Origin: Neobacillus sp. OS1-2
GTDB lineage: Bacteria > Bacillota > Bacilli > Bacillales > Cytobacillaceae
NCBI RefSeq assembly: GCF_030915505.1
Contig: NZ_CP133265.1
Span: 3,066,001-3,130,000, forward strand
Direction of reading: 5' to 3'
DNA: 64,000 nucleotides
Under the pieces are notes generated by a model that did no database searches, was not told where the DNA came from, and saw nothing but the letters and a program-made list of their open reading frames with translations. This document shows, one piece after another, positions 28,371-57,282 of the stretch (position 1 is the stretch's first letter; each line of letters opens with the position of its first letter). The translations under genes and the position numbers were made by a program.

Positions 28371-28384
28371 TATCAGCGCTTACA
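28371..28384 (+). promoter_or_regulatory. Probable CcpA (cre) site upstream of the GPH symporter
   Basis: TATCAGCGCTTACA, reverse complement TGTAAGCGCTGATA, fits the catabolite-responsive element with its central AGCGCT. It sits nine bases before the -35. Confidence 0.6.
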
Positions 28385-28392
28385 AAAAGTTG

Positions 28393-28421
28393 TTGACGTA
28401 TAAAAGGATGGGTGATATTCT
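28393..28421 (+). promoter_or_regulatory. Promoter of the GPH symporter gene
   Basis: TTGACG (28393-28398), 17-base spacer, TATTCT (28416-28421) with extended -10 TGA. The same architecture (TTGACG plus TGA-extended -10, operator just downstream) occurs at uxaC and the LarA homologue. Confidence 0.65.
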
Positions 28422-28431
28422 AAATGTACAA

Positions 28432-28462
28432 ATTAATTTGTAAGTTTAATAAACAAATTAAT
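28432..28462 (+). promoter_or_regulatory. ROK/XylR-type operator 1 (degenerate)
   Basis: ATTAATTTG and AAACAAATTAAT flank a core GTTT-AAT-AAAC. The right arm is identical to operators 2 and 3; the left arm carries about four extra bases (GTAA) that break the symmetry. It lies within the transcribed leader, ~10 bases after the -10. Confidence 0.6.
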
Positions 28463-28613
28463 GGAATTTAAAACCAATCTCGAGTTGGAATGGAAATTTT
28501 TTAAACGTAAATGAAAAGGGTTTCATGTTTAGGGAAAAGAAAATCCAGATAAAAAAAGGCATATTTGTAAGAGATATCTCCCAAATACAGCTAATCAAAT
28601 GGAGGGGTTAGAA

Positions 28614-30029
28614 ATGGGTCAACCTGCTAAAAAATTAGATACGCCAGCAACAAATATCATTGGAAATGCTGTCCGTCCTTTTGGGATGAGGGATAAAATT
28701 GGTTATATGTTTGGTGACTGGGGCAATGACTTTTTCTTTATCTTAGCAGCATCGTTCCTCATGGTTTTCTATACAGATGTATATCATATAAGTCCAGCAC
28801 TTGTAGGAACTCTCTTTTTAGTTGCCCGTTTGTGGGATGCTATTGCAGATGTAACGGTTGGGCGTTTCATTGACTCAAGAAAAGCCGGGAAAAACGGCAA
28901 ATTCAGACCATGGATTTTCAGAATGTCTTTTCCCCTTGTAATAGTGGGTGTAATAATGTTCGTTCATATCCCAGGGATGTCTACTGGATTTTATGAAGCC
29001 TATGCATTTGTAACCTATCTTTTATGGGGAACTTTATATAGCACTGTGAATATTCCATACGGTTCTATGGCGTCTGTGATGACCGCAGATCCAGTTGAAC
29101 GAACAACCTTATCAACCTTCCGTTCACTTGGTGGAGCGTTAGCGGGATTAATTATAAACGTTGTTGGTCCATTAATCTTATTTGTAGATAATAAGGCTGA
29201 TGCAAATCGTTTTATTCTCGGTGCCGTCATTTTCGGTGTTCTTTCTCTAGCATGTTATATGGCTTGTTATACATTAACAGTTGAACGAATTGTTGCTCCT
29301 AATTCTGAAACACCAAAAGGAAACTTTGCCCAAACAGTAAAAGGCCTTGGAAAAAACAAACCATTAATTTGGATTTTAGTTGCTTCATTACTTTTCTTGG
29401 TATGTTTCATGCTCGTGGGTACAGTAAATGTTTACTTATTTAAAGATTATTTCAGCAACGCCAAGGCATTAAGTATGGTAGGTCTTATCCAGACAGTTGC
29501 GTTAATTATTGCTATGCCGATGGTTAAACCGTTAGTAGCTAAGTTTGGTAAAAAGGAATTAGCATCTGCAGGACTACTTCTCTCTATTGTTGTATACGCG
29601 CTATTATATTTCTTGCCTAACTTAACTGTAGGTCAATTTACCGGTGTTTTAGCTGTTGGAATGTTTGGATTCTCCTTCTTTAATCTAGTGATTTGGGCAT
29701 TCGTAACAGATGTCATTGATTATCATGAATACGTAACTGGATTGCGAGAAGATGGAACTGTATACTCTATCTATTCATTTGCTCGTAAAGTAGGTCAAGC
29801 TGTTGCTGGTGGTCTCGGTGGTTATGCGATTGCAGCAGTTGGATATAATTCAGCAAGTCAGACACAAACACAAGAAGCACTGCATGGTATTCATTCACTG
29901 GCAACTTTAGTACCTGCCTTACTTCTTCTAGTTGTATTCTTAATCTTGGTATTCTTTTATCCATTAAATAAAAAACGTACTATTCAGCTTACAGCTGATT
30001 TAGCTGAAAGAAGAAAGGTACGAAACTAA
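28614..30029 (+). CDS. GPH-family sugar/uronide:cation symporter
   Basis: 471 residues with 12 predicted membrane helices, the glycoside-pentoside-hexuronide family (MelB, XynB, YjmB type). The N-terminal FGDWGNDFFFILAASFLMVF and FVARLWDAIADVTVGRFID-like segment holds the conserved Asp residues that bind the cation. ATG 28614 follows GGAGGGG (28601-28607) by six bases. Regulated by a ROK operator and probably CcpA, and close to uxaC, so a hexuronate or uronide is the likely substrate; that is inference. A terminator follows. Confidence 0.88.
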   Translation: MGQPAKKLDTPATNIIGNAVRPFGMRDKIGYMFGDWGNDFFFILAASFLMVFYTDVYHISPALVGTLFLVARLWDAIADVTVGRFIDSRKAGKNGKFRPWIFRMSFPLVIVGVIMFVHIPGMSTGFYEAYAFVTYLLWGTLYSTVNIPYGSMASVMTADPVERTTLSTFRSLGGALAGLIINVVGPLILFVDNKADANRFILGAVIFGVLSLACYMACYTLTVERIVAPNSETPKGNFAQTVKGLGKNKPLIWILVASLLFLVCFMLVGTVNVYLFKDYFSNAKALSMVGLIQTVALIIAMPMVKPLVAKFGKKELASAGLLLSIVVYALLYFLPNLTVGQFTGVLAVGMFGFSFFNLVIWAFVTDVIDYHEYVTGLREDGTVYSIYSFARKVGQAVAGGLGGYAIAAVGYNSASQTQTQEALHGIHSLATLVPALLLLVVFLILVFFYPLNKKRTIQLTADLAERRKVRN

Positions 30030-30053
30030 ATCACAGTATTTGTAAAGTCATCC

Positions 30054-30179: not shown

Positions 30180-31373
30180 TTATTTGTTTCCGCTTTCATT
30201 TTTCTCCCTTTGGTCATTGTAAGTAAAATTCAGCATTGGCACCTCAAGGAATTGTTTAATAGCAAGTGCGCATGCTCCAAGTCCACAGGATTTTTTTCCA
30301 ATCGTAGAAATCAATAATTCACGATAGTGGCTGATGGAAGAATGTAGGTTATTACGGATTTTCTCCAAAGAGTTCGGAACCATCTGCAGCAATTCACTAT
30401 CCAATACAAGTACGTCTGGATTGTACATGTTAATCATATTATTTAATCCAATTGAAAGGTAATAAATGAATTGCTCCAGCAACTCGTGTACCTCTTCGTC
30501 ACCTTCATCCAGCCATTGTTGAATTTGTTCATAGGTTAGATTTTTAATCCCTCTTTTTTCAGAAAGATAATCAAAAATACTCGATTCTGAGGCATACTTT
30601 TCCCAGCATCCTTTGTTTCCACAGTTGCAAGGTTTTCCACCTGGCATGATAATCATGTGACCTGCTTCACCCGCGTACCCGTCATGACCGCGAAAAAATT
30701 CGCTGTTCATCATCATCCCGAGACCGATTCCAGAGTAGAGGGTAGCACATAAAAGATTATTCGTTTCATGGTGCACAAACACTCTCTCTGCGAACGCAGA
30801 TAGATTTGCATTGTTTTCAAGATATATATTGATACCCAGTACATTTTCTAAATCATTTTTCAAGTGTACATCATGCCAGTTAAACTTGGGTACATAATGC
30901 ACAAGTTCGTCTGTCGAGACAAGGCCGTGAATAGCAATGACAATTCCAACAATCCCATAACGACTGTCAATACACTCAGATCTGTATTTTTGAATCTGCT
31001 CAAGTAAGAGATGCAGAATCTTATAGTAATCTGTAGTATCTATTCCAATAGTAGTAGAAGAAATAGGCTGACCTAAAAGATTGGAAAGGGTAAATGATAG
31101 TTGACCATAATCGAGGTCAATTCCAAGTGCATAGCCAGCTTGTCCATTTAAAGACAGCATGATTGGCTTCCGGCCGACATGATTATGCTCTAGTTGTGTT
31201 TCGACAATTAATCCTTCATCTAGTAAGTCTGCTACTTGTGCTGAAATCGTTGCTCGTGTTAGAGCAGTGACTTTTGATAAATCCGCCCTTGAAATCATTC
31301 CTTCTTTTACAATTTCTCTGATGATTAAGGAGCGATTAATTTTTTTGATATAAGCCGCATCACCGGTAACCAT
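30180..31373 (-). CDS. ROK-family transcriptional repressor 1 (XylR-like)
   Basis: 397 residues: an N-terminal winged helix (~1-75; ISRADLSKVTALTRATISAQ as recognition helix region), then a ROK sugar-kinase-like effector domain with the zinc motif CNCGNKGCWE (~255). XylR-type repressors bind sugars directly and release long AT-rich palindromes. It is divergent from uxaC, and operator 2 lies in the shared intergenic region, which fits autoregulation. A close paralogue is encoded at 48475-49632. The ligand is unknown; a hexuronate or its product is the natural guess. Confidence 0.9.
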   Translation of the reverse strand: MVTGDAAYIKKINRSLIIREIVKEGMISRADLSKVTALTRATISAQVADLLDEGLIVETQLEHNHVGRKPIMLSLNGQAGYALGIDLDYGQLSFTLSNLLGQPISSTTIGIDTTDYYKILHLLLEQIQKYRSECIDSRYGIVGIVIAIHGLVSTDELVHYVPKFNWHDVHLKNDLENVLGINIYLENNANLSAFAERVFVHHETNNLLCATLYSGIGLGMMMNSEFFRGHDGYAGEAGHMIIMPGGKPCNCGNKGCWEKYASESSIFDYLSEKRGIKNLTYEQIQQWLDEGDEEVHELLEQFIYYLSIGLNNMINMYNPDVLVLDSELLQMVPNSLEKIRNNLHSSISHYRELLISTIGKKSCGLGACALAIKQFLEVPMLNFTYNDQREKNESGNK

Positions 31374-31508: not shown

Positions 31509-31533
31509 TTAATTTGTTTAATAAACAAATTAA
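31509..31533. promoter_or_regulatory. ROK/XylR-type operator 2 (perfect palindrome)
   Basis: TTAATTTGTTT, centre AAT, AAACAAATTAA: 11-base perfect arms. It is ~10 bases downstream of the uxaC -10 and upstream of the divergent repressor gene. Confidence 0.8.
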
Positions 31534-33173: not shown

Positions 33174-34589
33174 ATGTCAAAACAACAAATTGGTGTAGTT
33201 GGCCTAGCGGTAATGGGGAAAAACCTCGCTTTGAATATTGAAAGCCGCGGCTATTCGGTTGCCGTTTTTAACCGTTCATATGATAAAACTGAAGCGTTTC
33301 TGAAAAATGAAGCGGAGGGTAAAAACTTTGTCGGTGCTCGTACCGTTGAGGAATTTGTTCATTCGTTAGAAAAACCACGTAAAATCTTATTGATGGTTAA
33401 AGCTGGTAATGCAACAGATGGAACGATTGATTCATTAAAACCATTCCTTGAAGAAGGCGATATCCTCATTGATGGTGGTAATACCTTTTTCCAAGATACA
33501 ATTAGACGTAATAAAGAACTTGCAAATGCAGGGTTCCATTTTATCGGAACGGGTGTTTCCGGCGGTGAAGAAGGGGCATTAAAAGGTCCTTCCATTATGC
33601 CTGGCGGTAATAAAGAAGCCTATGATTTAGTAAAGCCAATCCTAGAGGCGATTTCAGCTAAGGTTGAAGGGGACCCATGCTGTACATATATTGGACCAAA
33701 CGGTGCAGGTCATTATGTGAAAATGGTTCATAATGGAATTGAATATGGTGATATGCAATTAATTTGTGAAGCATACTTTATTCTGAAGAATGTCCTTGGT
33801 TTAAGCACTGAAGAGCTTCATGGTGTGTTTGCAGAATGGAATAAAGGCGAGCTTGACAGCTACTTAATTGAAATTACCGCAGATATTTTTACAAAAGTGG
33901 ATGAAGAAACAGGAAAACCTTTAGTTGACGTGATTCTAGATACTGCTGGTCAAAAAGGAACTGGTAAATGGACAAGCCAAAACGCTTTAGATTTAGGTGT
34001 CCCGCTTCCCATCATCACAGAATCAGTTTTTGCCCGTTTTATCTCAGCAATGAAAGAAGAACGTGTGAAGGCTAGTCAAGTTTTAAATGGTCCAGCTGTA
34101 AAACCATTTGAAGGAAATAAAGAAGAATTAATTGAAGCAGTTCGTAAAGCACTATATATGAGTAAAATTGTGTCATATGCACAAGGCTTTGCCCAAATGC
34201 GTGTGGCATCTGAAGAATACGATTGGAATCTTCAATACGGAAATATCGCGATGATTTTCCGCGGCGGCTGCATTATCCGTGCTCAATTCTTACAAAAAAT
34301 TAAAGATGCGTACGACCGTGATTCTCAGTTAGCAAATCTATTATTAGATCCATACTTTAAAGAAATTGTTGAAGGGTATCAACCGGCACTTCGTCAAGTG
34401 CTTTCAGTAGCTATTGAACGTGGTATCCCAGTGCCATCATTCGCAAGTGCTATCGCATATTATGACAGTTATCGTACGGAAACACTTCCTGCAAACCTAT
34501 TGCAAGCACAACGTGATTACTTTGGTGCCCATACGTATCAACGTGTGGATAAAGAAGGAATATTCCATACAAATTGGATGGAAAAGTAA
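33174..34589 (+). CDS. gndA: 6-Phosphogluconate dehydrogenase (decarboxylating)
   Basis: Oxidises 6-phosphogluconate to ribulose-5-phosphate and CO2. 471 residues: Rossmann domain with [18 protein letters not shown] (~8) and the NADP-type VFNRS strand end (~33), substrate loop [19 protein letters not shown] (~128), catalytic Lys-Asn region [17 protein letters not shown] (~180). Length and motifs fit the NADP-dependent GndA type. AAAGGAAAGG precedes ATG 33174. Its place next to uxaC suggests a link between hexuronate catabolism and the pentose phosphate route. Confidence 0.96.
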
Positions 34590-34794: not shown

Positions 34795-35736
34795 ATGAGT
34801 GCTATGGATTTGGAAGCAGCTATAAATAATCAAAGTATGATGAATAAATGGATCACTGCAGCTTACAGAGTTCAAGGTGTGCATTCCTATTCCTTTCAGT
34901 ATCATTCCCATCATGAATATGAAATTTATTTCTTTTGTGGTGGTGATTGTAAGTATTTAATTAGTAATCGGATTTATGAACTGGAGCCTGGTGATATCAT
35001 TCTATTGGATGGCATGACACTGCATAAACCGAATCCGAAAATAGAAAGTACCTATACAAGAAGTATGCTTCATTTTTCACCCACATGGATGGCAGAAATT
35101 GCAGCAGTTCTAGGGATTCCTAATTTGTTGGATCCATTTAAGAAGCTCAATAATTATCTACTACGAACGGGCTACAATGAATCTGGCCAATATATTGACC
35201 AACAGATAAAGAAAATCGTAGGACTTTTGGCCTGGATGAATGAAGAAATGCTCCAGACAGGCACAAATAATAGGCTGTTAGAGGCCGAAGTAAAGCTGGA
35301 ATTAGTTCAACTACTCGTAAAAATATATAAAATGAGTCAAGAAGAATTAGCACATGTTTCGAATAAAAAAACAGAAAAAGAAGTCCATGCCGAGGCCATT
35401 GCCTCATGGATAAAAGACCATTTTGCTGAAAAAATGAATTTGGATCGGATTTCGACTGAACTAAATTTAAGTAAATATTATACTTCACATGTTTTTAAAG
35501 AGATTACTGGTTTTACTGTGATGGAATATGTGATGGGCTGCAGGCTTAATCAGGTCAAGTTTTTATTAGAAATGGAGCCTGACCTCACTCTTGCTGAAGT
35601 TTCAAGTGCAGCTGGATTTGAAAGTCTTGCCCATTTCAGCCGTTATTTTAAGGAAAAGGTAGGGGTTACGCCCTCTCGTTACCGCAAAAATAAACGAATA
35701 GCCGATACATCGGGAACAAAGGAGGATTCGCTATAA
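34795..35736 (+). CDS. AraC-family transcriptional regulator
   Basis: ~313 residues: an N-terminal cupin sugar-sensing domain (HHEYEIYFFCGGDCKYLI, ~38; HKPNP, ~78) and a C-terminal double helix-turn-helix (~200-300; LNLSKYYTSHVFKEITGFTV and AGFESLAHFSRYFKEKVGVT). It heads a run of four sugar-catabolic genes and its stop codon abuts the next start, so it is co-transcribed and probably controls that set. The start may be ATG 34795 or 34804; AGAAAGG at 34786-34792 is too close to the first and slightly far from the second. Confidence 0.88.
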   Translation: MSAMDLEAAINNQSMMNKWITAAYRVQGVHSYSFQYHSHHEYEIYFFCGGDCKYLISNRIYELEPGDIILLDGMTLHKPNPKIESTYTRSMLHFSPTWMAEIAAVLGIPNLLDPFKKLNNYLLRTGYNESGQYIDQQIKKIVGLLAWMNEEMLQTGTNNRLLEAEVKLELVQLLVKIYKMSQEELAHVSNKKTEKEVHAEAIASWIKDHFAEKMNLDRISTELNLSKYYTSHVFKEITGFTVMEYVMGCRLNQVKFLLEMEPDLTLAEVSSAAGFESLAHFSRYFKEKVGVTPSRYRKNKRIADTSGTKEDSL

Positions 35737-36624
35737 ATGAATCAGGATTTATGGATTTCCGGCTTTTCAGATGAAATCTCGTCTGATTTTGAGACACAAC
35801 TTGAGGTTGTTTCAAACCTTGGCATGCGTTATCTCTCATTACGGGGCATTGATGGGAAAAACATCGGCGACTTTACAGTTGAAGAAATAAAAGAAAATGT
35901 ACAGCCAAGGTTGCAAAAATATGGTATTCAAGTTTCTTCAATCGGTTCACCGATTGGGAAAGTATTTATCAATGATGAAGAAGGATTTGCAAAGCAAAAG
36001 CTGATGTTGGACACGCTTTGCCAAATTAGCAATTTGCTTGATTGCCAATATATACGAATCTTCAGCTTCTATATTCCTAAAGGTGAGGATGCAGATCAAT
36101 ATCGTAGTGAAGTGGTAGGTAAGCTTAAGGAATACGCTGCCATTGCAGCAAAGTACAATGTGATATTGCTGCATGAAAATGAAAAAGATATTTTTGGTGA
36201 TATCGCGAGACGCTGTCATGAGATTTTAACGGAAGTAGGATCTCCTTATTTTAAAGGGATTTTTGACTTTGCTAATTTCGTACAGTGCGGAGAAGATACA
36301 CAGGAGTGTTACGATCTCTTAAGAGATGAGATTGTTTATATACACATTAAGGATGCTGTAACAGCGGATAGCCAAAATGTTGTCTGTGGAACTGGCGAAG
36401 GAAAAATACCAGAATTGTTAGCCCAGTTTATGAAGAGCGGCTATAAGGGATTTTTAACGCTTGAGCCACATCTTGTCATCTTTGATTCTTTAAAGGACTT
36501 AGAGCTAGAAGATGCATCCGAAATTATTAAGGACAACAAAGGGCTAGACGGTGCCGGCGGTTACAAGCTTCAATATGAAGCCTTATTAGACATTCTCAAC
36601 AAAATGGAAAGCGAGGGAAATTAA
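35737..36624 (+). CDS. Sugar phosphate isomerase/epimerase (xylose isomerase-like TIM barrel) 1
   Basis: 295 residues of the AP-endonuclease-2-like fold. Metal-ligand segments are seen in LLHENEKDIFGD (~148), GIFDFANFVQCG (~180), IHIKDAV (~206) and LTLEPHL (~245). Such proteins isomerise or epimerise sugars, inositols or 3-keto-sugars. AAAGGAGG lies at the end of the AraC gene and the ATG directly follows its stop. Two bases separate it from the oxidoreductase that follows. The substrate cannot be told. Confidence 0.85.
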   Translation: MNQDLWISGFSDEISSDFETQLEVVSNLGMRYLSLRGIDGKNIGDFTVEEIKENVQPRLQKYGIQVSSIGSPIGKVFINDEEGFAKQKLMLDTLCQISNLLDCQYIRIFSFYIPKGEDADQYRSEVVGKLKEYAAIAAKYNVILLHENEKDIFGDIARRCHEILTEVGSPYFKGIFDFANFVQCGEDTQECYDLLRDEIVYIHIKDAVTADSQNVVCGTGEGKIPELLAQFMKSGYKGFLTLEPHLVIFDSLKDLELEDASEIIKDNKGLDGAGGYKLQYEALLDILNKMESEGN

Positions 36625-36626
36625 TT

Positions 36627-37787: not shown

Positions 37788-37796
37788 TCACCACAC

Positions 37797-37835
37797 GAAA
37801 CGAACTCATTGCTGCTAAAGCTTTGAGTTCGTTTC
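37797..37835 (+). other. Intercistronic hairpin between two oxidoreductase genes
   Basis: GAAACGAACTCA and TGAGTTCGTTTC form a perfect 12-bp stem with a 15-base loop. There is no T run after it; instead the ribosome binding site AAAAAGGGG of the next gene begins at once. It may tune expression or mRNA decay within the operon. Confidence 0.65.
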
Positions 37836-37852
37836 AAAAAGGGGAAATGCTT

Positions 37853-38857: not shown

Positions 38858-38860
38858 ACA

Positions 38861-39721: not shown

Positions 39722-39734
39722 TAGGTAATAGGGG

Positions 39735-39763
39735 AAAGCAGCTGTATGTGCAGCTGCTTTTTC
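39735..39763 (+). terminator. Terminator after the AraC-led sugar operon
   Basis: AAAGCAGCTG, loop TATGTG, CAGCTGCTTTTT. Confidence 0.88.
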
Positions 39764-39787
39764 TCATTTGAAGAAAACAAAAAATGC

Positions 39788-39992
39788 AAAACTTCAAGAA
39801 TCCCGGAAGAAATGCCCGATAGATGGATTCTAAAGGACAAAACTCAGAGAATCCAGAGAGAAATGCCCGATAGATGGGTTCTAAAGGACAAAACTCAGAG
39901 AATCCAGAGAGAAATGTCCGATAGAATGCCTCTAAAGGACAAAACTTCAAGAATTCCGGAAGAAATGTCCGATAGAAGCACCTTTCAAATAC
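39788..39992. repeat. Four 51-bp tandem repeats
   Basis: Four copies of a 51-bp unit, each with AATGYCCGATAGA (starting 39811, 39862, 39913, 39964) and TCTAAAGGACAAAACT. Spacing is exactly 51 bases each time. Copies 1 and 4 share TTCAAGAAT.CCGGAAGAAATG, copies 2 and 3 share CAGAGAATCCAGAGAGAAATG. Because 51 is divisible by three, both strands show repetitive ORFs, but neither has a ribosome binding site at a sensible start. The repeat fills the space between two converging transcription units. Confidence 0.9.
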
Positions 39993-41850: not shown

Positions 41851-41864
41851 GAGAGGTGAGGGAT

Positions 41865-42812: not shown

Positions 42813-42841
42813 GTTGACGAAATGAACAAGGAGGGACATCC

Positions 42842-43675: not shown

Positions 43676-43729
43676 TTTCAGATTCACAGCATCAAAAAAA
43701 TAAATAATAACTAGTAGGGGGTAGGGAAA

Positions 43730-45082: not shown

Positions 45083-45200
45083 ATAGATTAATCTCAACTT
45101 TCTTGCAATTAAAGTTGAGTATATAATAGGGACAGGGGCGATACCCGCTTTTTCGGCCCCAATCTTTTTCAAAAGATAAGAAAGAAATCTTGATTTTGAG

Positions 45201-45353: not shown

Positions 45354-45366
45354 GAGGAGGTTGGAA

Positions 45367-48474: not shown

Positions 48475-49632
48475 TTAAAGCGATAAGCAGATAATTGAGA
48501 CATTCAAAAACTTTTTAATCGCAAAAGCACATGCGCCCATTACACACGCTTTGTTTCCCAGTTCTGATACCCGCAATTCACAATAATGGCTAATCGTTGA
48601 AGTAAGATGATTTTTTATTTCCGCTACAGCATCCTGATAGTTTCGAAGTAATTCACTGTTAATGACCAAAATCTCAGGATTATAGAGATTGATAATATTA
48701 TTAAGGCCAATTGATAGATACTTAATATATTGTTTCATTTGTTCACACGTAATTGGTTCTTGCCCCCTGATTAACTTTTGAATATCGTCATAGCTTAATT
48801 CAGGAGTATTCTGCTTTTCAGATAATTGTTTCATGAAGCTTGATTCTGATGCATATTGTTCCCAACACCCGAAATTCCCGCAGCTGCATGGTATTCCGTC
48901 AGGAACGATGATCATATGGCCAATTTCGCCTGCATAGCCATGATGGCCCTTAAGTGCATCACCATTCACCATTATGCCTAGTCCAATTCCGGAGTACAGA
49001 CTGATTGATAACAAATTCTCACTTTGATGATGTTGATAGACCTTTTCGGCAAAAGAACACAAATTTGCATTGTTTTCGATATAAATGCTCACACTGGTTT
49101 GGGTTTGTAGGTCATCTTTTAAATTTTTGTTGTGCCAGCCGTGCTGCGGAACAAAATAAATCATCTCGTCATTATTTACAATCCCGTGAATCCCAATCAC
49201 TACCCCTGACAGGCCATAACGAGCTTCTGAACATTGCTGTTTGTAAGCGTTTATTTGTTTGATCAACATTCCAAGAATAACATCATAATCAGAGGTATCT
49301 AGATGAATTGTATCTGTCTGAACCGGCAAACCGCTAATATTAGCTAAGGCAAAGGTAACCGAATGTTTATCAAGGTCAATTCCAAGTACAAATCCAGCCT
49401 GTTGGTTGATGGAGAGCATGATTGGTCTTCTGCCAAGATTCTTATGATCTTGCTGGGTCTCGATAATTAAATCCTCCGCTAGTAAATCAGCTGCTTGAAC
49501 AGAGATCGTTGCTTTATTTAGACCTGTAATTTTTGCCAGGTCGGCTCTGGATATCATCCCATGTTCAAAAATTTTACTTATGATTAACGATCGGTTGAGT
49601 TTTTTGATGTATGCAGCATCACCTGTAATCAT
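48475..49632 (-). CDS. ROK-family transcriptional repressor 2 (XylR-like)
   Basis: 385 residues, clearly paralogous to the ROK protein at 30180: both start M(V/I)TGDAAYIKK(I/L)NRSLII and keep the same helix-turn-helix and zinc motif (here CSCGNFGCWE, ~250). Divergent from the LarA-homologue operon, with operator 3 in the shared region. The two repressors' near-identical recognition helices suggest they read the same palindromes. The last ~10 residues (NVSIICLSL) differ from the paralogue. Confidence 0.9.
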   Translation of the reverse strand: MITGDAAYIKKLNRSLIISKIFEHGMISRADLAKITGLNKATISVQAADLLAEDLIIETQQDHKNLGRRPIMLSINQQAGFVLGIDLDKHSVTFALANISGLPVQTDTIHLDTSDYDVILGMLIKQINAYKQQCSEARYGLSGVVIGIHGIVNNDEMIYFVPQHGWHNKNLKDDLQTQTSVSIYIENNANLCSFAEKVYQHHQSENLLSISLYSGIGLGIMVNGDALKGHHGYAGEIGHMIIVPDGIPCSCGNFGCWEQYASESSFMKQLSEKQNTPELSYDDIQKLIRGQEPITCEQMKQYIKYLSIGLNNIINLYNPEILVINSELLRNYQDAVAEIKNHLTSTISHYCELRVSELGNKACVMGACAFAIKKFLNVSIICLSL

Positions 49633-49713: not shown

Positions 49714-49746
49714 TTAATTAATTTGTTTGGTAAACAAATTAATTAA
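49714..49746. promoter_or_regulatory. ROK/XylR-type operator 3 (perfect 33-base palindrome)
   Basis: Perfect 15-base arms, TTAATTAATTTGTTT and AAACAAATTAATTAA, around GGT. It begins five bases after the -10. The inner arms are the same as in operators 1 and 2. Confidence 0.85.
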
Positions 49747-49882: not shown

Positions 49883-51151
49883 GTGGGTATACTTCAAGAA
49901 TTATTAAAAGATATTCCTGTACCAAAAATGGCAAAAGTGAATGTGAAGTTTGATGACAAAATGATTGATGACCTTCGTAAAGCTTTAATGGAAAAATTAC
50001 AACAAGAACAGATTATAAAGACCGTTCGGCCTGGAATGGAAATTGCCGTAGCTGTCGGCAGCAGGGGGCTTGACCGTCTCGTGGAATTAACTGCGGTAAC
50101 GGTTCAGTTTTTAAAAGATTTAGGGGCAAAGCCATTTATCGTCCCTAGCATGGGTAGCCACGGTGGTGCAACCGCAGAAGGACAGCGGGAAGTATTAGCA
50201 CATCTCGGTGTTACAGAGGAAAGTGCGGGCTGTGAAATCCGTTCATCAATGGAAGTAGTAAAGATCAGCGAATTACCGAACGGTTTGCCTGTATATGTCG
50301 ATAAATATGCCTCAAAAGCTGATGGGATTGTCGTGATCAATCGTGTGAAGCCGCATACGGCATTCCGAGGACCTGTGGAAAGCGGGCTTATGAAGATGAT
50401 TAGTATCGGCTTAGGGAAACAAAGAGGGGCCGAAGCCTGCCATCAAATGGGTTTTAAATATATGGCAGAAAATGTGCCGGCGATGGCGAAAATCATCATG
50501 GAAAAAACACCATTCCTATTTGGAATAGCGACAGTTGAAAATGCCTTCGACAAAGTGGCAATTGTGGAAGCATTAACACAGGCTGAGATTATCGAAAAGG
50601 AAGCTGGATTACAGACACAAGCAAAAGCATTATTGCCAAAGTTATATTTTGATCAATTGGATGTCCTCGTGATTGATGAAATTGGAAAAAACATTAGCGG
50701 TGATGGAATGGATCCAAATATTACAGGTCGTTATCCCACTCCATATGCAACAGGCGGCCCAGATGTTAACAAAATGGTGGTGCTGGATGTAACGCATGAA
50801 TCAGAGGGGAATGCCAATGGAGTAGGAACCGCAGATTTTACAACCAAGCGTCTATTAGACAAAATGGATTTAGAAGGAACCTATGCAAATGGGTTAACAT
50901 CAACGGTTGTGGCTCCTACAAAAATAGCTACGACATTACCAAATGATAAACAAGCAATTCAGGCTGCTGTAAAAACCAGTAATATCTTAGATTTTAGAAA
51001 TGTCAAATTGGTTCGCATTAAAAATACCTTGAAACTTAGTGAAATTGAAGTATCCGAACCGTTGCTTGACTATATAGCAAAACATCCAAATATGGAGCAG
51101 GTTTCGGATCTATATGAATTTCCATTCGATGAAAACGGGAATTTATTTTAA
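49883..51151 (+). CDS. LarA-superfamily nickel-dependent hydroxyacid racemase/epimerase
   Basis: 422 residues from GTG 49883 (AAGGAGTG upstream). The N-terminal half is the lactate racemase (DUF2088) domain. SMGSHGGAT (His93), RVKPHTAFRGPVESGLMKM (His158, Lys171) and GKQRGAEACHQMG (His187) can be matched to the catalytic and pincer-binding residues of lactate racemase LarA. In particular Lys171 to His187 is 16 residues, the spacing of the LarA cofactor lysine (Lys184) and nickel ligand (His200). The protein is divergent from true LarA and sits with an SDR and gluconokinase, so a sugar-acid 2-epimerase (gluconate/mannonate) is more likely than lactate racemisation. larE, larB and larC for the cofactor are in the same cluster. 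Confidence 0.82.
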   Translation: MGILQELLKDIPVPKMAKVNVKFDDKMIDDLRKALMEKLQQEQIIKTVRPGMEIAVAVGSRGLDRLVELTAVTVQFLKDLGAKPFIVPSMGSHGGATAEGQREVLAHLGVTEESAGCEIRSSMEVVKISELPNGLPVYVDKYASKADGIVVINRVKPHTAFRGPVESGLMKMISIGLGKQRGAEACHQMGFKYMAENVPAMAKIIMEKTPFLFGIATVENAFDKVAIVEALTQAEIIEKEAGLQTQAKALLPKLYFDQLDVLVIDEIGKNISGDGMDPNITGRYPTPYATGGPDVNKMVVLDVTHESEGNANGVGTADFTTKRLLDKMDLEGTYANGLTSTVVAPTKIATTLPNDKQAIQAAVKTSNILDFRNVKLVRIKNTLKLSEIEVSEPLLDYIAKHPNMEQVSDLYEFPFDENGNLF

Positions 51152-51171: not shown

Positions 51172-51942
51172 ATGACAAATTTATTTGATCTAACAGGAAA
51201 GACGGCGGTAGCAATCGGGGGAAATGGTGTATTAGGCTCTGCCATGGCAAAAGGATTAGCAGACCACGGAGCTAAAGTAGCGATTGTTGGTCGAAATTTG
51301 GAAAAGGCGGAGGAAATTGTTAAACAAATAGTCAATAACGGTGGAGAAGCAAAGGCGTTTTCAGCAGATGTTAGTTCTAAAGATTCCTTGGTTCAGGTTG
51401 CGAATGAAATCGAACAATGGTCTGGTGGCTGGGATATTCTCCTGAATGCACCTGGAACAAATAGTGCGACACCTTTCTTTGAACTTGATATGGATGAATA
51501 TGATAAAATAATGGATATCAACTTAAAAGGGATTGTCCTAACCTGTCAAATTTTCGCGAAAAGAATGATTGAGCAGGATCGAAAAGGCAGTATTATTAAC
51601 ATTTCATCTGTTTCATCGACAACACCGCTTTCAAGAGTATTTACGTATTCTGTTTCGAAAGCAGGTCTTAACAGTGTAACACAGTTCTTAGCACGTGAAT
51701 TTGCACCTAATGGAATTCGTGTGAATGCGATTATTCCAGGATTTTTCCCGGCTGAACAAAATCGGAAAATATTAGACAAAGAACGAATCGAATCGATCAT
51801 GAGCCATACCCCGATGAATCGCTTTGGTGAAGCAGAAGAATTACAAGGTGCTACTGTTTGGCTCGCTTCAGAAAAGGCATCAAGCTTTGTCACTGGTGCA
51901 ATGATTCGTGTCGATGGCGGATTCGGCTGTATGACAATCTAA
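51172..51942 (+). CDS. SDR-family oxidoreductase, probably D-mannonate/fructuronate oxidoreductase type
   Basis: 256 residues. The NAD-binding loop AIGGNGVLGSAMAKGLADHG, the active-site YSVSK (Tyr159, Lys163) with Ser145-148, and the C-terminal VDGG are complete. The N-terminus reads much like B. subtilis YjmF (SDR-type D-mannonate oxidoreductase: GGAGDLGKAMVKGLSEHGA), which reduces D-fructuronate to D-mannonate. Starting 20 bases after the LarA homologue under the same operator, it would supply or use that enzyme's substrate. General SDR assignment is sure; the substrate is inferred. Confidence 0.85.
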   Translation: MTNLFDLTGKTAVAIGGNGVLGSAMAKGLADHGAKVAIVGRNLEKAEEIVKQIVNNGGEAKAFSADVSSKDSLVQVANEIEQWSGGWDILLNAPGTNSATPFFELDMDEYDKIMDINLKGIVLTCQIFAKRMIEQDRKGSIINISSVSSTTPLSRVFTYSVSKAGLNSVTQFLAREFAPNGIRVNAIIPGFFPAEQNRKILDKERIESIMSHTPMNRFGEAEELQGATVWLASEKASSFVTGAMIRVDGGFGCMTI

Positions 51943-52018: not shown

Positions 52019-52819
52019 ATGCTAACTGAGAAATATAAAAAATTACAGTCTATTCTCCGTGAAATGGAATCGGTAGTTGTTGCGTTTTCAGGAGGAGTGG
52101 ATAGTACGTTTTTACTAAAAGCGGCATTTGACACATTAGGTGCGGATCACGTTCTAGCCGTAACTGCGGACTCTGAAAGCTATCCCTCAAGTGAGCTTAA
52201 AGAAGCAATGGAGCTTGCCGAAAAAATGGGTGTCAGGCACCAAGTGATTGAAACTTCTGAACTGGCCATCCCAGGCTACGCTGAGAATAATAAAAATCGA
52301 TGCTACTTTTGTAAAAGCAGTTTATTCGATCATTTAATTCCAGTCATGGAAGAAATGGGTTTTCAAAATGTCATATATGGTGTCATTGCTGATGATATGA
52401 ATGAATTTCGTCCAGGCATGCAGGCTGCTAAAGAAAAGGGGATACGCGGTCCGCTGCAGGAGGCTGATTTATTTAAGGAAGAAATTAGAGAGCTGTCACG
52501 GAATTTAGATTTGCCAACATGGGATAAACCATCACTTGCCTGTCTTTCATCTAGAATTGCCTATGGGGAGTTTATTACCCAAGAAAAGCTGTCAAAGGTT
52601 GAAAGGGCAGAAGATTATTTAAAAAGACTCCATATTCGCCAAGTTCGTGTAAGGACACACGAGGACATTGCCCGGATTGAAGTTGAACCAAGTGATATGA
52701 GTACCATTTTAGAAAATCATAATTCGATTGTAAAAACGCTGCAAGAGTATGGATATAAATATATTACTTTAGATTTAATAGGATATCAGAGCGGCAGTAT
52801 GAACAAGGTTCTATCTTAA
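52019..52819 (+). CDS. larE: ATP-dependent sulfur transferase LarE
   Basis: Builds the two thiocarboxyl groups of the nickel-pincer nucleotide. 266 residues with the PP-loop FSGGVDST at 23-30. Three cysteines stand where cluster-type LarE has them: Cys95 and Cys98 (RCYFCKS) and Cys175 (PSLACLSSR). L. plantarum LarE keeps only the last and sacrifices its sulfur. The three-Cys form may bind a 4Fe-4S cluster and reload sulfur. GGGGAGGGG is upstream. The operon started at the LarA homologue ends with a strong terminator after this gene. Confidence 0.93.
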   Translation: MLTEKYKKLQSILREMESVVVAFSGGVDSTFLLKAAFDTLGADHVLAVTADSESYPSSELKEAMELAEKMGVRHQVIETSELAIPGYAENNKNRCYFCKSSLFDHLIPVMEEMGFQNVIYGVIADDMNEFRPGMQAAKEKGIRGPLQEADLFKEEIRELSRNLDLPTWDKPSLACLSSRIAYGEFITQEKLSKVERAEDYLKRLHIRQVRVRTHEDIARIEVEPSDMSTILENHNSIVKTLQEYGYKYITLDLIGYQSGSMNKVLS

Positions 52820-52826: not shown

Positions 52827-52866
52827 AAAACAAAAGGCTTTGGATATATCCAAAGCCTTTTGTTTT
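52827..52866 (+). terminator. Terminator after larE
   Basis: A perfect palindrome with 20-base arms: AAAACAAAAGGCTTTGGATA and its complement, ending TTTTGTTTT. Confidence 0.92.
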
Positions 52867-52944: not shown

Positions 52945-54420
52945 ATGCCAAGAGAGTTTGTAATTGGACTTGATGTCGGAACAACAAGCGTTAAAGCCTG
53001 TGTGTTTAACTTACACGGTAAATTAATGGCTGATGTTGAAAAAGTAATTACATCAAATTACCCCCAGCAAGGATGGGTAGAGCAAAATCCGGATGAAATT
53101 GAACAATCTGCAATCCTAGCAATTAGAGAAGTCATTGAAAAAGCGGCAATTGAGAAAAATGAATTGGTTTCTCTTGGTTTTTCTGCTGCGATGCATTCGC
53201 TTATTTGTATCAATGGGGAGGGCAAACCGATATCTCCAGCACTTATTTGGGCCGATGGAAGAAGTTATAAACAGGCTGATGAGGTAATTAATACAATTGG
53301 AAATAAGGTTTACGCTAAAACAGGAACACCGATTCACCCCATGACACCCTTTGTAAAATTATTGTGGATGAAAGAAAATGACTATAAACCATACAAAGAA
53401 GCAAAATTTTTCATGTCAATTAAAGAATACTTACTCCTTTGCTGGTTTGGCGAGAGAGTAATTGATTATTCAATGGCATCCGCAACAGGGTTATTCAACC
53501 CCACAACCCATAAATGGGAGCAAGAACTATTAGGCCTTACGGGTATTTCGGAAGATCAGCTATCTGAAATTGTTCCACCGACAAAAATAGTGATGGGAAT
53601 CAACCGAGATAAAGCAGAAGAGATGGGGATTCACCCCGACATGCCTGTAGTTGTTGGAGCGGCAGATGGACAATTAGCGAACCTGGGAAATGGTGCAATT
53701 CTTCCCGGTGAAGTAGCTGTTTCAGTTGGAACAAGCGGGGCTATTAGGCAAGTGACAAAGGGTGTTAAGATTAGTGAGAGTCGTGAAACGTTTTGTTATT
53801 CCTTTACAGAGGATTCTTCCATCATAGGCGGACCGACGAATAATGGAGGAATTGCTATTCAATGGTTAAAGGAACTATTGAACGACCAAAGAAGCTTTGC
53901 TGAATTTCTTTCTGATGCGGAACAGATTCCTCCAGGTGCAGATGGTATGCTTTTTCTTCCTTATTTAAATGGTGAAAGAGCACCAATTTGGAACCAACGG
54001 GCAAAAGGGAATTTTTACGGAGTAACAATCACACATAAAAAGGAACATTTTATTCGTGCCGTACTTGAAGGAATCACCTTTAATCTCTATCAAATTGGAA
54101 AAACCTTGGAACGCTTAGCCGGTGAGCCGCAAAAAGTTTATGTAAACGGTGGTTTAGCCAGATCTCCATTGTGGCTCCAAATGATGGCAGATATATTTGA
54201 GGCGGAAATTTATGTTTCGGAAAGCCATCATAGTGCAGCATGGGGGGCTGCATGGACCGCGTTAGTGGCAATCCGTAAAGTTGCTTCCTTTGAAGAAATT
54301 AAAAGAAATATTCCGATGGGAAAAGCCACACTTCCAATTAAAGAAAATAGTGAACAATATAAGAAGTTCTATGAGAATTATGAAATGTTAGCAAATGATA
54401 TGGTAAAGTATTTTAAGTGA
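52945..54420 (+). CDS. gntK: Gluconokinase (FGGY family)
   Basis: Phosphorylates D-gluconate to 6-phosphogluconate. 491 residues with the FGGY layout: GLDVGTTSVKACVFN (phosphate 1, ~9), GFSAAMHSLICIN (~75), WADGRS (~95), GAADGQLANLGNGA (~233), VSVGTSGAIRQV (phosphate 2, ~256) and GGLARSPLWLQMMADIF (adenosine, ~395). The AMHSL and ADGQLANLG segments are the gluconokinase-specific versions. It has its own start region after the larE terminator and is followed directly by larB, so the NPN genes and the kinase are co-transcribed. It fits a product of gluconate from the LarA homologue. Confidence 0.9.
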   Translation: MPREFVIGLDVGTTSVKACVFNLHGKLMADVEKVITSNYPQQGWVEQNPDEIEQSAILAIREVIEKAAIEKNELVSLGFSAAMHSLICINGEGKPISPALIWADGRSYKQADEVINTIGNKVYAKTGTPIHPMTPFVKLLWMKENDYKPYKEAKFFMSIKEYLLLCWFGERVIDYSMASATGLFNPTTHKWEQELLGLTGISEDQLSEIVPPTKIVMGINRDKAEEMGIHPDMPVVVGAADGQLANLGNGAILPGEVAVSVGTSGAIRQVTKGVKISESRETFCYSFTEDSSIIGGPTNNGGIAIQWLKELLNDQRSFAEFLSDAEQIPPGADGMLFLPYLNGERAPIWNQRAKGNFYGVTITHKKEHFIRAVLEGITFNLYQIGKTLERLAGEPQKVYVNGGLARSPLWLQMMADIFEAEIYVSESHHSAAWGAAWTALVAIRKVASFEEIKRNIPMGKATLPIKENSEQYKKFYENYEMLANDMVKYFK

Positions 54421-54437
54421 GAATAGGGGGGATAGGC

Positions 54438-55184
54438 ATGCTTGAGGATGTGTTGAAGCAAGTTCAAGATGGAACCCTTAGTATTACAGCTGCCAAGGAA
54501 CAATTAGCTACCTTTGAAAATTTGGGTTTTGCGAAAGTCGACCACCATCGAAAAAAACGACAGGGCTTTGCAGAGGTCGTTTATGGGGAAGGAAAGACAG
54601 CGGAACAAATTATTTCAATTATCCTGACTTTAAGGGCGCGGAATAATGAAATTCTTGTAACAAGGGTTGCAATGGAGAAGGCTGAATTAATCCGGAATGA
54701 GCTTCCTGAACTGATCTATAATGAGACAGCAAGGATTCTTTTTTGGAAAAATGAAACGAATACTGAGAGAAGCCCGGAAGGATACATTGCCATTGTAGCT
54801 GCAGGAACCTCTGATTTACGGGTTGCAGAAGAAGCGGCAATTACAGCAGAGGTGCTCGGGAGCAAGGTACGCCGCTTTTATGATGTCGGTGTTGCCGGCA
54901 TTCATCGCCTCTTGTTTCATGCCGAAGAAATTCAAAATGCGACAGTCTCCGTTGTTGTTGCTGGAATGGAAGGGGCTCTCCCAAGTGTAGTGGGCGGACT
55001 TGTTTCTCACCCTGTCATTGCTGTCCCGACAAGCATTGGGTATGGAGCGAGTTTTAACGGCCTATCGGCCTTGCTTACGATGTTAAATTCATGTGCTTCA
55101 GGAATTAGTGTAGTAAATATTGATAATGGGTTTGGCGGCGGATATAACGCTGTATTAATACATCAGCTGGCACAAAAGGGGTAG
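54438..55184 (+). CDS. larB: Nickel-pincer cofactor carboxylase/hydrolase LarB
   Basis: Carboxylates nicotinic acid adenine dinucleotide at C5 and cleaves the phosphoanhydride, the first step of nickel-pincer nucleotide synthesis. 248 residues from ATG 54438 after a GGGGGG-rich ribosome binding site. The C-terminal half is PurE-like: AAGTSDLRVAEEAAIT (~120), RRFYDVGVAGIHRLLFH (~148), VVVAGMEGALPSVVGGL and CASGISVVNIDNGFGGGYNA are characteristic. It begins 17 bases after the gluconokinase stop. Confidence 0.95.
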   Translation: MLEDVLKQVQDGTLSITAAKEQLATFENLGFAKVDHHRKKRQGFAEVVYGEGKTAEQIISIILTLRARNNEILVTRVAMEKAELIRNELPELIYNETARILFWKNETNTERSPEGYIAIVAAGTSDLRVAEEAAITAEVLGSKVRRFYDVGVAGIHRLLFHAEEIQNATVSVVVAGMEGALPSVVGGLVSHPVIAVPTSIGYGASFNGLSALLTMLNSCASGISVVNIDNGFGGGYNAVLIHQLAQKG

Positions 55185-55188
55185 GGAA

Positions 55189-56058
55189 ATGAAGACACTT
55201 TATTTTGATTGTTTTTCGGGAATCAGCGGCGATATGGTCATCGGGGCACTTATCGATGCTGGAGCTGATCCAAATCTATTAGCAGAGGAATTAAAAAAGC
55301 TTCAAATTGAAGATGAATATGAGCTGAAATGGAAAAAAATCATAAAAAATGGTATTAGCAGCACAAAATTTGATGTTGTACTGCTAAACAATTCGAATAA
55401 TCAAAACAACAATCATGAGCACACCGAAGACCATAGTCATGGTCACGAACACGAGCACCACCACGATCATAGTCATATCCACGAACACGAACACCACCAC
55501 CATCACCATCACCATAGCCATGATCATGACCATCACCACCAGCATGACCATCGTGCCTATAAAGAGATTGTGGAATTAATTGAGGGGGCTGGTTTTTCTG
55601 ACTCTGTAAAGGAAACCGCCTTAAAAATTTTTAATAAAATTGGTGAAGCAGAAGGGTTGATCCACGGAATACCATTGGAAAATGTCCATTTCCACGAAGT
55701 AGGAGCCGTTGATTCGATTATTGATATTATCGGTGCGGCGATCTTAATCGACCAATTGGAAATAGACATCATCAAGTCATCAGCTATTCCTGTTGGCACA
55801 GGAAGAATTCATATTGACCACGGAGTTTATCCGGTACCGGCTCCCGCGACACTCGAAATTTTAAAAGGAGTGCCGCTTGACCAATCGGATATCAGAGCGG
55901 AGCTTACAACACCAACGGGAGCGGCGATTGTCGCCGTACTTGCTGAGGAATATTGTTCGATTCCTTCATTGAAAGTTAGGTCAATCGGGTATGGTGCGGG
56001 AACAAAAACCTTTAAACACCACCCAAATGTACTCCGAGTTATTATTGGTGAGCAATAG
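55189..56058 (+). CDS. larC: Nickel insertion protein LarC, N-terminal part (LarC1), with a long His tract
   Basis: Nickel-inserting cyclometallase that places Ni into the pincer nucleotide using CTP. 289 residues. The N-terminal YFDCFSGISGDMVIGALIDAG is the LarC signature. Residues 76-121 are a remarkable metal-binding tract, with 28 of 46 residues His, including a run of eight. After that VHFHEVGAVDSIIDIIGAAI and TTPTGAAIVAVLAE are conserved. It stops at the expected LarC1/LarC2 border (VLRVIIGEQ). It begins four bases after larB, so it is translationally linked. Confidence 0.93.
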   Translation: MKTLYFDCFSGISGDMVIGALIDAGADPNLLAEELKKLQIEDEYELKWKKIIKNGISSTKFDVVLLNNSNNQNNNHEHTEDHSHGHEHEHHHDHSHIHEHEHHHHHHHHSHDHDHHHQHDHRAYKEIVELIEGAGFSDSVKETALKIFNKIGEAEGLIHGIPLENVHFHEVGAVDSIIDIIGAAILIDQLEIDIIKSSAIPVGTGRIHIDHGVYPVPAPATLEILKGVPLDQSDIRAELTTPTGAAIVAVLAEEYCSIPSLKVRSIGYGAGTKTFKHHPNVLRVIIGEQ

Positions 56059-56110
56059 TGAGAAAACAAGTTACGTAAAAAAGTCATCCAACTTGAAAGG
56101 GGGTAACCAA

Positions 56111-56590
56111 ATGGCCTCACTTCCTCCCAATCATGAACATTATGATCATCAAATGGTCAAAATGGAAGTGAATCTCGATGATATACCTGGAGAATGGCTT
56201 GGCTATGTGATGGACTTACTATTCGAGGCCGGAGCAAATGATGTGTTCTATACGCCCATTTATATGAAAAAAAATAGACCAGGCGTATTACTGCAGTTAC
56301 TTTGTTCACAAGAAAATAGTAATAGAATGAAGGAGATTCTTTTTAAGGAAACAACCACGCTAGGTCTACGCTATTATCCGTTAACCGTACATAGATTAGA
56401 AAGAATGTTTACAAAGGTTACTACGGAGTGGGGGAGCGTGACGGTAAAAGAGGGAATATTTGAAGGACAAGTCGTACAAAGAGCTCCCGAGTATGAGGAA
56501 TGTAAACATATTGCGCAGCTTCATAATATTCCTTTAAAACAAGTCTATGAGCAGGTTTGGAAAGTAATAGGGGAAAAAGATAGACTTTAA
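56111..56590 (+). CDS. larC2: Nickel insertion protein LarC, C-terminal part (LarC2)
   Basis: 159 residues from ATG 56111, with AAAGGGGG seven bases before. VNLDDIPGEWLGYVMDLLFE and YTPIYMKKNRPGVLLQLLC are the LarC C-terminal domain (CTP-binding and oligomerising in the characterised enzyme). The reading frame stays open upstream to 55991, overlapping the end of larC1 in the +1 frame, so a +1 (or -2) frameshift could in principle make a fused LarC. In L. plantarum LarC is made by a programmed -1 frameshift. Here the separate ribosome binding site makes independent translation the simpler reading. Confidence 0.88.
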   Translation: MASLPPNHEHYDHQMVKMEVNLDDIPGEWLGYVMDLLFEAGANDVFYTPIYMKKNRPGVLLQLLCSQENSNRMKEILFKETTTLGLRYYPLTVHRLERMFTKVTTEWGSVTVKEGIFEGQVVQRAPEYEECKHIAQLHNIPLKQVYEQVWKVIGEKDRL

Positions 56591-56640
56591 GATTTTCTTT
56601 TTCTTCATTATGATAATAGAGGAGAGGAAGAAGGTTAGTT

Positions 56641-57282
56641 ATGAGCTTTATCTCTGTATTATTTTTAGGTTTTGTTTTAGGAATAAAGCATTCCATCGAA
56701 CCGGATCATATTATTGCCGTTTCCACCATGGTTGGTAAGAGCAATAAGCTGTCTCGTTCTACTTTAACAGGTGTATTCTGGGGAATCGGACATACTAGTA
56801 CTCTTTTTATTGTCGGGATGATATTGGTTTTGATGAAAGGTGAGTTATCAGAGAAATGGGCCATGTCACTCGAATTTTTAGTGGGCATTATGTTAGTGTA
56901 TTTAGGTATAAAAAGTATGCTATTTTTTAATAACTTTCAAAGGAATTCCGATAACCATGCTCGTTCATCATTCATAAAGATTACCTTTATTGGGTTTATT
57001 CATGGATTGGCAGGGAGTGCAGCGATGGTTATTTTAACTATGTCAACTGCGTCGTCTGTCTGGGAGTGTGCCTTATATATTTTGATATTTGGTGCAGGAA
57101 CGATTATTGGGATGCTCATGTTTACAACGATCATTGGAATTCCGTTTGTTTATAGTAAAAAAAGCGTAGGTCTTAATCGTCGTTTGACCCAATTTGCCGG
57201 GACGGTAAGTTTTCTATTTGGGATCTACTATATGTATAATCTGGGTATTACAGAAGGACTATTTCAGATGTGGGTACAGTAG
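56641..57282 (+). CDS. Nickel/cobalt transporter-like membrane protein (NiCoT/UreH type)
   Basis: 213 residues with about six membrane helices. The first helix holds H-S-I-E-P-D-H (His17, Asp22, His23), the H-x4-D-H signature of nickel/cobalt permeases; a second conserved FIHGLAGSAAMVIL lies at ~120. Homologues are named UreH or HoxN/HupN/NixA-like. Placed 50 bases after larC2 and in the same direction, it most likely brings in nickel for the pincer cofactor. ATG 56641, ribosome binding site GAGAGGAAG. Confidence 0.85.
   Translation: MSFISVLFLGFVLGIKHSIEPDHIIAVSTMVGKSNKLSRSTLTGVFWGIGHTSTLFIVGMILVLMKGELSEKWAMSLEFLVGIMLVYLGIKSMLFFNNFQRNSDNHARSSFIKITFIGFIHGLAGSAAMVILTMSTASSVWECALYILIFGAGTIIGMLMFTTIIGIPFVYSKKSVGLNRRLTQFAGTVSFLFGIYYMYNLGITEGLFQMWVQ

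Follow-up and report, generated by a model that had tools for sequence, protein, structure and literature searches.

In the canonical UxuA/KdgK/KdgA route of glucuronate catabolism, UxaC and the reduction of fructuronate lead to mannonate, and the route continues via mannonate dehydratase and 2-keto-3-deoxygluconate (KDG). Here, we describe a locus of Neobacillus sp. OS1-2 that probably encodes a nickel-dependent glucuronate bypass. Uronate would be converted via fructuronate to mannonate, mannonate to gluconate by a LarA homolog (a nickel-pincer-type enzyme), and gluconate via 6-phosphogluconate to ribulose-5-phosphate. The locus occupies positions 28,371–57,282 of a stretch of 64,000 nucleotides (contig NZ_CP133265.1, positions 3,066,001–3,130,000), and this whole stretch is referred to as the window. 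The predicted route shares its upper part with the canonical one but would involve neither a mannonate dehydratase nor KDG; CO2 would be lost and a pentose phosphate formed.

Such a route has precedent: Rodionova et al. 2012 proposed it for Thermotoga maritima (as cited in PMC6978723), and GntE activity has already been shown, GntE2 turning mannonate into gluconate in vitro (PMC7583248). The gnd-uxaRED-gntEK operon of T. maritima, part of the UxaR regulon, combines the epimerase, gluconokinase, and 6-phosphogluconate dehydrogenase with UxaE in a single operon for uronates, and a kdgAK-uxuBA operon is also present under the same regulator (PMC3750489). In contrast, the genome of the window has no UxuA match, and ROK proteins lie beside the genes where T. 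maritima has GntR regulators. GntE also represents another LarA branch, and the window protein matches Protein Data Bank (PDB) entry 4nar, which we take to be T. maritima GntE, by fold only. In the D-galacturonate pathway of Lactobacillus suebicus, the upper half of the isomerase route is joined to 6-phosphogluconate and the pentose phosphates, and the available text of PMC6978723 reports that UxuA, KdgK, and KdgA were not detected in the proteome. Unlike in the order favored here, the kinase precedes the epimerase in L. suebicus, and no gene is assigned to the epimerase in that text (PMC6978723). By curated score, the window protein is a member of group 22 of the LarA homologs (NF052515). The family model names no substrate, and the one proposed here concerns the uronate-linked subclade only. 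Among the matches listed in a search of open-licence main texts, no paper tied group 22, or a LarA homolog of Bacilli, to uronates. What sets the present case apart is its LarA branch, its host group and regulator, its loss of UxuA, and the glucuronide module linked to it.

Gene content of the locus

Genes were identified by open reading frame (ORF) calls and hidden Markov model (HMM) scans against the curated family cut-offs of NCBIfam and Pfam. The uronate and lar units contain the following genes.

28599–30029, plus strand: GPH-family symporter, glucuronide-transporter-like; TIGR00792 (gph) 359.9 bits (cut-off 231.35), next PRK09848 glucuronide transporter 314.4 (cut-off 528)
30180–31373, minus strand: ROK-family repressor 1 (rok1), divergent from uxaC; PF00480 171.8 bits
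31566–33032, plus strand: uronate isomerase UxaC; PRK02925 631 bits (cut-off 387), Pfam UxaC 690.8
33174–34589, plus strand: NADP-dependent 6-phosphogluconate dehydrogenase (gndA); PRK09287 789.6 bits (cut-off 413)
48475–49632, minus strand: ROK-family repressor 2 (rok2), a paralog of repressor 1 (orthologs of both share one protein cluster), divergent from larA
49883–51151, plus strand: LarA homolog, predicted to be a D-mannonate/D-gluconate 2-epimerase; NF052515 "nickel pincer cofactor-dependent isomerase, group 22" 558.6 bits (cut-off 400)
51172–51942, plus strand: short-chain dehydrogenase/reductase (SDR), probable fructuronate reductase (D-mannonate oxidoreductase), presumably using NADPH; PRK08277 286.8 bits, narrowly over the cut-off of 281; best PDB matches 4wuv (166.4 bits) and 1vl8 (155.1 bits)
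52019–52819, plus strand: LarE, cofactor-synthesis sulfur transferase; TIGR00268 370.2 bits (cut-off 150)
52945–54420, plus strand: FGGY kinase, probable gluconokinase (gntK); TIGR01314 461.9 bits (cut-off 648.55, not reached); closest PDB chain gluconate kinase 3gbt (313.7 bits), followed by one at 177
54417–55184, plus strand: LarB; NF033503 306.8 bits, over the cut-off
55189–56058, plus strand: LarC1; TIGR00299 214.5 bits, over the cut-off
55991–56590, plus strand: LarC2, overlapping LarC1 in another frame; Pfam Ni_insertion (PF01969) 167.3 bits, over the cut-off
56641–57282, plus strand: NiCoT/NicO-like membrane protein, probably for nickel uptake; NicO 26.5 bits (cut-off 27.7); ortholog in 5 of 80 related loci

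The genes named in an earlier note on this DNA were found where it had placed them, most of them passing curated family cut-offs. The two that it called gluconokinase and NiCoT transporter are present as well, but under names that have become less certain. The kinase fails the gluconokinase cut-off, yet gluconate kinases provide both its top-scoring model and its top PDB chain, and the NicO score of the transporter lies just below the cut-off.

The earlier note had also proposed that hexuronates bypass mannonate dehydratase and KDG aldolase. The window's own genome gave no match to UxuA. ManD was not found among its enolase-superfamily matches because all three score as other enzymes, namely galactonate dehydratase (719.8 bits, with a ManD score of 278.4 under the cut-off of 550), o-succinylbenzoate synthase, and enolase. 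For KDG aldolase, a search that covered the PF01081 family returned one homolog, which lies two genes from the galactonate dehydratase in the same run. With UxaC, an SDR of the D-mannonate oxidoreductase type, a kinase closest to gluconate kinases, and an NADP-dependent GndA, and with no mannonate dehydratase found, epimerization of mannonate to gluconate would be the simplest closing step. D-Mannonate is the C2 epimer of D-gluconate. The LarA homolog is the only Lar_N match of its genome, and the lar genes therefore serve this protein; larB, larC, and larE stand in the same gene run as larA.

The gap between larE and gntK holds a perfect hairpin (52833–52860) followed by a T-rich run. It resembles a terminator, and gntK-larB-larC may therefore be partly uncoupled from larA-sdr-larE. 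The larC gene is divided in two (55189–56590): larC1 and larC2 overlap in different frames, and separate ORFs occur in many relatives too; larC is likewise split in Lactiplantibacillus plantarum.

Properties of the LarA homolog

Judged by its sequence and a structural model, the LarA homolog is a nickel-pincer-type enzyme. LarA-type enzymes invert the carbon of an α-hydroxy acid via hydride transfer to the cofactor (PMC12611868). The Lar_N domain (PF09861) is present at 34.9 bits (cut-off 23.3), and malate-racemase models score the protein at 26.4 bits or less. Profile–profile comparison with seven classical LarA proteins gave 98.4% probability over residues 31–268. His93 and His158 align with the catalytic histidines of LarA, Lys171 with the lysine that tethers the cofactor, and His187 with the histidine that binds nickel (roles from PMC12611868 and PMC7583248), and all four are invariant in 29 group 22 rows. 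The profile alignment stops at residue 268, short of the LarA substrate residues Tyr294, Gln295, and Lys298.

No PDB sequence matched the protein at E ≤ 1 with phmmer or a profile, 4nar included. The AlphaFold model has a mean pLDDT of 78.3, with largely low values for residues 269–348. All 19 Foldseek matches of this model at E ≤ 0.001 are LarA-family chains (19/19), and VIA-align against LarA-family structures, including 4nar, gave Z scores of 18.1–21.4 and root-mean-square deviations of 2.7–5.5 over 216–314 aligned residues. Below the LarA rows, nothing exceeded Z 5.8 among the matches listed, which is not counted as evidence of absence.

Two other class assignments were rejected. Assignment to GntE, the gluconate 2-epimerases that the earlier note had in mind, was dropped: GntE belongs to groups 19/20, whereas the window protein falls in group 22 by score and has no sequence match to 4nar, an assignment made with no GntE set aligned. 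A single-histidine LarA of the Blautia/Streptococcus type described in PMC12611868 was ruled out because both catalytic histidines are kept.

Group 22 matched in 133 of 398 sampled genomes of the phylum, 85 of them over the cut-off, and its members occur in varied gene settings. In a tree of 58 rows, the window protein falls among its relatives of the uronate-linked subclade.

Gene neighborhoods in relatives

Related loci, drawn from named genomes, were the best 80 of at least 536 LarA relatives, a choice biased to close ones, with 65–87% identity to the uronate-linked subclade; up to 10 kb on each side of larA was examined, and some contigs were short. Neighborhood genes were counted by tblastn with the window proteins, which non-orthologous replacements escape, and these counts differ by a few from those based on ORF clusters. 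Many of the loci come from Neobacillus, Bacillus, Paenibacillus, Oceanobacillus, and Gracilibacillus.

The SDR gene lies near larA in 75 loci at 50% identity or more (77 when weaker SDRs are counted) and directly follows it in 73 of the 80. The other genes near larA are larE (64 loci), gntK (61), larB (60), larC1 (47), larC2 (46), uxaC (42), and gndA (35), and 54 loci have uxaC or gndA; uxaC directly precedes larA in 22/80. In the co-occurrence check suggested by the earlier note, larA, uxaC, SDR, gntK, and gnd genes were found together widely. Beyond the 80 loci, two genomes of another class, both from one family (L170 and L173), show the order uxaC-gnd-gfo2-tim2-larA-sdr-gntK. A uxaE-type gene (tagaturonate/fructuronate epimerase) occurs in 6/80 loci, one copy identified by HMM and the rest by cluster, which fits fructuronate use.

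At loci L146 and L147 (69–71% identity), whose genomes have no UxaC, the genes near larA encode an ABC transporter, a 6-phosphogluconate dehydrogenase homolog, and a gluconokinase-type kinase (by tblastn in L146, also by HMM in L147). Even without the uronate part, larA thus appears linked to the phosphorylation and oxidation of gluconate. These loci possibly represent an aldonate import route with the same epimerase. L147 also has a galactonate dehydratase.

The Gly-Arg-Asn motif after the second strand is present in 68/73 SDR copies. By the rule for classical SDRs, such a motif favors NADPH.

A small membrane protein of the auxin-efflux-carrier type (L103 8971–9930 and relatives) was seen in 10 loci, directly before larA in 7/80; it is a candidate sugar-acid transporter.

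Probable replacement of UxuA

UxaC and UxuA were searched genome-wide for 75 of the 80 loci (all except L041, L078, L057, L070, and L095). UxaC was found in 72/75 genomes (48/48 plus 24/27). UxuA gave no match at E ≤ 0.001 in 32/75 (17/48 plus 15/27), and 29 of these 32 have UxaC.

A class sample of 398 Bacilli genomes was drawn regardless of larA. Twelve of them, the window's own included, have a LarA homolog at 69% identity or more, a threshold picked after the list was seen. UxaC is present in 10 of these 12 versus 96/398 overall (Fisher p 1.9e-5), or in 9/11 without the own genome (p 6.7e-5). Of the genomes with UxaC, 6/10 that have this LarA but only 5/86 that do not are without UxuA (p 8.6e-5); with the own genome excluded, the first figure is 5/9 (p 4.5e-4). 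Two of the five genomes with UxaC but neither UxuA nor this LarA (G314 and G619) have only a broken UxaC. The class sample overlaps with the 75-genome set, which makes the two tests interdependent; related species are not independent either, and the p values are therefore optimistic.

Operator palindromes

Three operator sites were identified.

28437–28461, no strand: degenerate ROK operator before the symporter gene; 4 mismatches in 25 bases, right half identical to the uxaC operator
31509–31533, no strand: operator palindrome with perfect 11-base arms, TTAATTTGTTT-nnn-AAACAAATTAA, before uxaC in the rok1/uxaC gap
49718–49742, no strand: operator palindrome with perfect 11-base arms, TTAATTTGTTT-nnn-AAACAAATTAA, before larA in the rok2/larA gap

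The matching palindromes that the earlier note had placed before three units are thus perfect before uxaC and larA, whereas the symporter copy is degenerate. A perfect palindrome, TACAAATTAATTTGTA, lies beside the degenerate copy at 28427–28442. With up to three mismatches, the 23-base operator core has no sites in the window other than those of uxaC and larA (4 matches counting both strands), against 0.03 expected, and 4 matches were reached in 0/100 shuffles.

In related loci, the operator (up to 3 mismatches in 18) was found within 350 bases upstream of larA in 34/79, uxaC in 27/38, gndA in 7/32, and gph in 4/5, and upstream of sdr, gfo1, and gntK in 1/79, 0/22, and 0/61, respectively. Control regions, made by one mononucleotide shuffle of each region, gave 1/38 for uxaC, 0/79 for larA, and 0 for gndA, gph, and the others. 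The gndA gene has the operator where it precedes larA and the stretch shows no uxaC (L051, L056, L059, and L064). From their position, we infer that the ROK proteins bind this operator; the two repressors and one common operator would tie the units together.

A probable linked glucuronide module

Five further genes lie downstream of gndA. They were not mentioned in the earlier note, though inside its span.

34795–35736, plus strand: AraC-type regulator, named from reading the sequence; NCBIfam AryK match 81.6 bits, far under the cut-off of 850; ortholog in 16/80 loci by tblastn
35737–36624, plus strand: xylose-isomerase-like TIM-barrel protein tim1; PF01261 81.4 bits
36627–37787, plus strand: Gfo/Idh/MocA oxidoreductase gfo1, probable glucuronide 3-dehydrogenase; PDB 8tdi 483.6 bits, residues 2–385
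37823–38857, plus strand: second Gfo/Idh/MocA oxidoreductase gfo2; best PDB match 8tdi, 147.9 bits
38861–39721, plus strand: xylose-isomerase-like TIM-barrel protein tim2, possibly a 3-keto glycoside eliminase/hydratase; PF01261 54.1 bits; weak PDB matches 8bvk, 8tcd, and 8tcs

The match of gfo1 to 8tdi ("P2B11 Glucuronide-3-dehydrogenase") extends over the full length. The window gene differs from it in being linked to a uronate catabolic locus, and its activity is a prediction. For tim1, only two weak PDB matches were obtained, to differently named entries. The genes gfo1, gfo2, and tim2 occur together in 20/80 loci, nine of which have uxaC in the locus. The module (34795–39721) probably opens glucuronides via 3-keto intermediates and hands glucuronate to UxaC, a reading that draws partly on oxidative glycoside cleavage. 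No literature on glucuronide 3-dehydrogenase was found among open-licence papers.

A third Gfo/Idh oxidoreductase is found in 11/80 loci (L084 8611–9711, also L079, L088, L099, and L104). In loci that carry the glucuronide module, it lies close to larA or immediately upstream of it. After tim2, a minus-strand ORF (39576–39950) contains three near-identical peptide repeats, which suggests a short tandem DNA repeat. The region between the uxaC and larA units (41179–48441) contains ABC sugar transporter genes as well as membrane histidine-kinase-like and response-regulator-like proteins; its permease has a weak NCBIfam UgpA match below the cut-off.

Proposed pathway and alternatives

Here, we propose the following pathway. 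The symporter would import uronides, and the 3-dehydrogenase module may free glucuronate. UxaC would isomerize glucuronate to fructuronate, and the SDR would reduce fructuronate to D-mannonate. The group 22 LarA homolog, with the nickel-pincer nucleotide supplied by LarB, LarC, and LarE, would invert C2 of D-mannonate to form D-gluconate. The FGGY kinase would phosphorylate D-gluconate to 6-phosphogluconate, and GndA would decarboxylate this to ribulose-5-phosphate. The bypass would stand in for the mannonate dehydratase/KDG route and, where UxaE is added, would probably serve galacturonate too. Since the Gly-Arg-Asn motif of the SDR favors NADPH, GndA could supply its reductant; the SDR would consume the NADPH made by GndA, and the route would thus be redox-neutral. 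The reactions of the LarA homolog, the SDR, and the kinase, as well as the cofactor balance, are sequence-based predictions. The mannonate-to-gluconate step suggested in the earlier note gains support from the absence of UxuA and ManD matches in the own genome and from the wide co-occurrence.

Several observations weigh against this pathway. Gene context is not always predictive of the activity of LarA homologs (PMC7583248), and no group 22 enzyme is among the assayed ones in the available texts (PMC7583248, Table 1; PMC11770544). For the C-terminal substrate domain of the window protein, where the model has low confidence, no alignment with a LarA of known substrate was obtained. UxuA is matched (E ≤ 1e-3) in 43/75 cluster-bearing genomes, in 42 of them over the cut-off. 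The kinases of the window and of L170 score well under the gluconokinase cut-off, and that of L147 just under it (629.2 against 648.55). The gntK gene is not near larA in 19/80 loci and is not in the locus in 5/6 loci with a UxaE-type gene, and in 26/80 loci, both uxaC and gndA are absent from the stretch examined. In three Paenibacillus loci (L050, L054, and L057), larA stands with the lar cofactor genes, and the SDR ortholog, gntK, and uxaC are not nearby. Three Limnochordia/Bacillota metagenome-assembled genomes have the larA-sdr pair and no UxaC, and the UxaC of one further genome (that of L108) is reported with internal stops. Finally, UxaC accompanies more distant group 22 proteins in only 1/8 genomes at 58–62% identity and 5/40 at 57% or less. 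These distant proteins are not tied to UxaC, and the proposal is therefore restricted to the uronate-linked subclade.

The order of the two steps after mannonate could be reversed, with the FGGY kinase acting on D-mannonate first and the group 22 enzyme epimerizing 6-phosphomannonate to 6-phosphogluconate. Such a kinase-first order was measured in L. suebicus extracts, the epimerase gene being left open in the available text of PMC6978723, and the low gluconokinase score of the window kinase would agree with it. In contrast, the LarA-family hexonate epimerases assayed so far use unphosphorylated mannonate, according to PMC7583248 and PMC11770544. The closest solved structure of the window kinase is a gluconate kinase, and L147 has a gluconokinase just under the cut-off and a 6-phosphogluconate dehydrogenase near larA. 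We consider the phosphorylated variant unlikely. A complete KDG-free glucuronide pathway, in which 3-keto bond opening is followed by conversion of mannonate 6-phosphate to 6-phosphogluconate by the group 22 enzyme, appears quite unlikely. If true, it would provide a nickel-pincer enzyme for a phosphorylated substrate, of which there is none in the parts of the LarA literature examined, and the orphan activity of L. suebicus would gain a candidate class of genes.

It is very unlikely that the cluster is a mixed sugar-acid island whose larA acts on an unrelated 2-hydroxy acid, with uronates degraded via an unrecognized dehydratase. The imperfect guidance of gene context (PMC7583248) and the spread of group 22 over varied settings (85/398 genomes of the phylum over the cut-off) would allow it, but the common operator, the direct adjoining of larA to uxaC and SDR, and the pattern of UxuA replacement speak against it. 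Most improbable is inversion of another α-hydroxy center that only feeds substrate in, such as C5 of a hexuronate (iduronate/glucuronate): open-chain uronates are α-hydroxy acids at C5 and the group 19 substrate is suspected to be a uronic or aldaric acid (PMC7583248), but with this role, UxuA-less genomes would have no outlet for mannonate and no source of substrate for gntK/gnd, and larA is still found close to gntK and gnd in the absence of UxaC.

Biological significance

The mannonate-to-gluconate bypass would provide a substrate for uronate-linked members of a widespread nickel-pincer family to which no substrate is assigned, and would account for UxaC-bearing Bacilli that live without UxuA. 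It predicts nickel-dependent growth on uronates in Bacillaceae and Paenibacillaceae. It also predicts that glucuronate reaches pentose phosphate by a redox-neutral route, which could be used in engineering. At the same locus, a probable 3-keto glucuronide-cleaving module would be linked with uronate catabolism.

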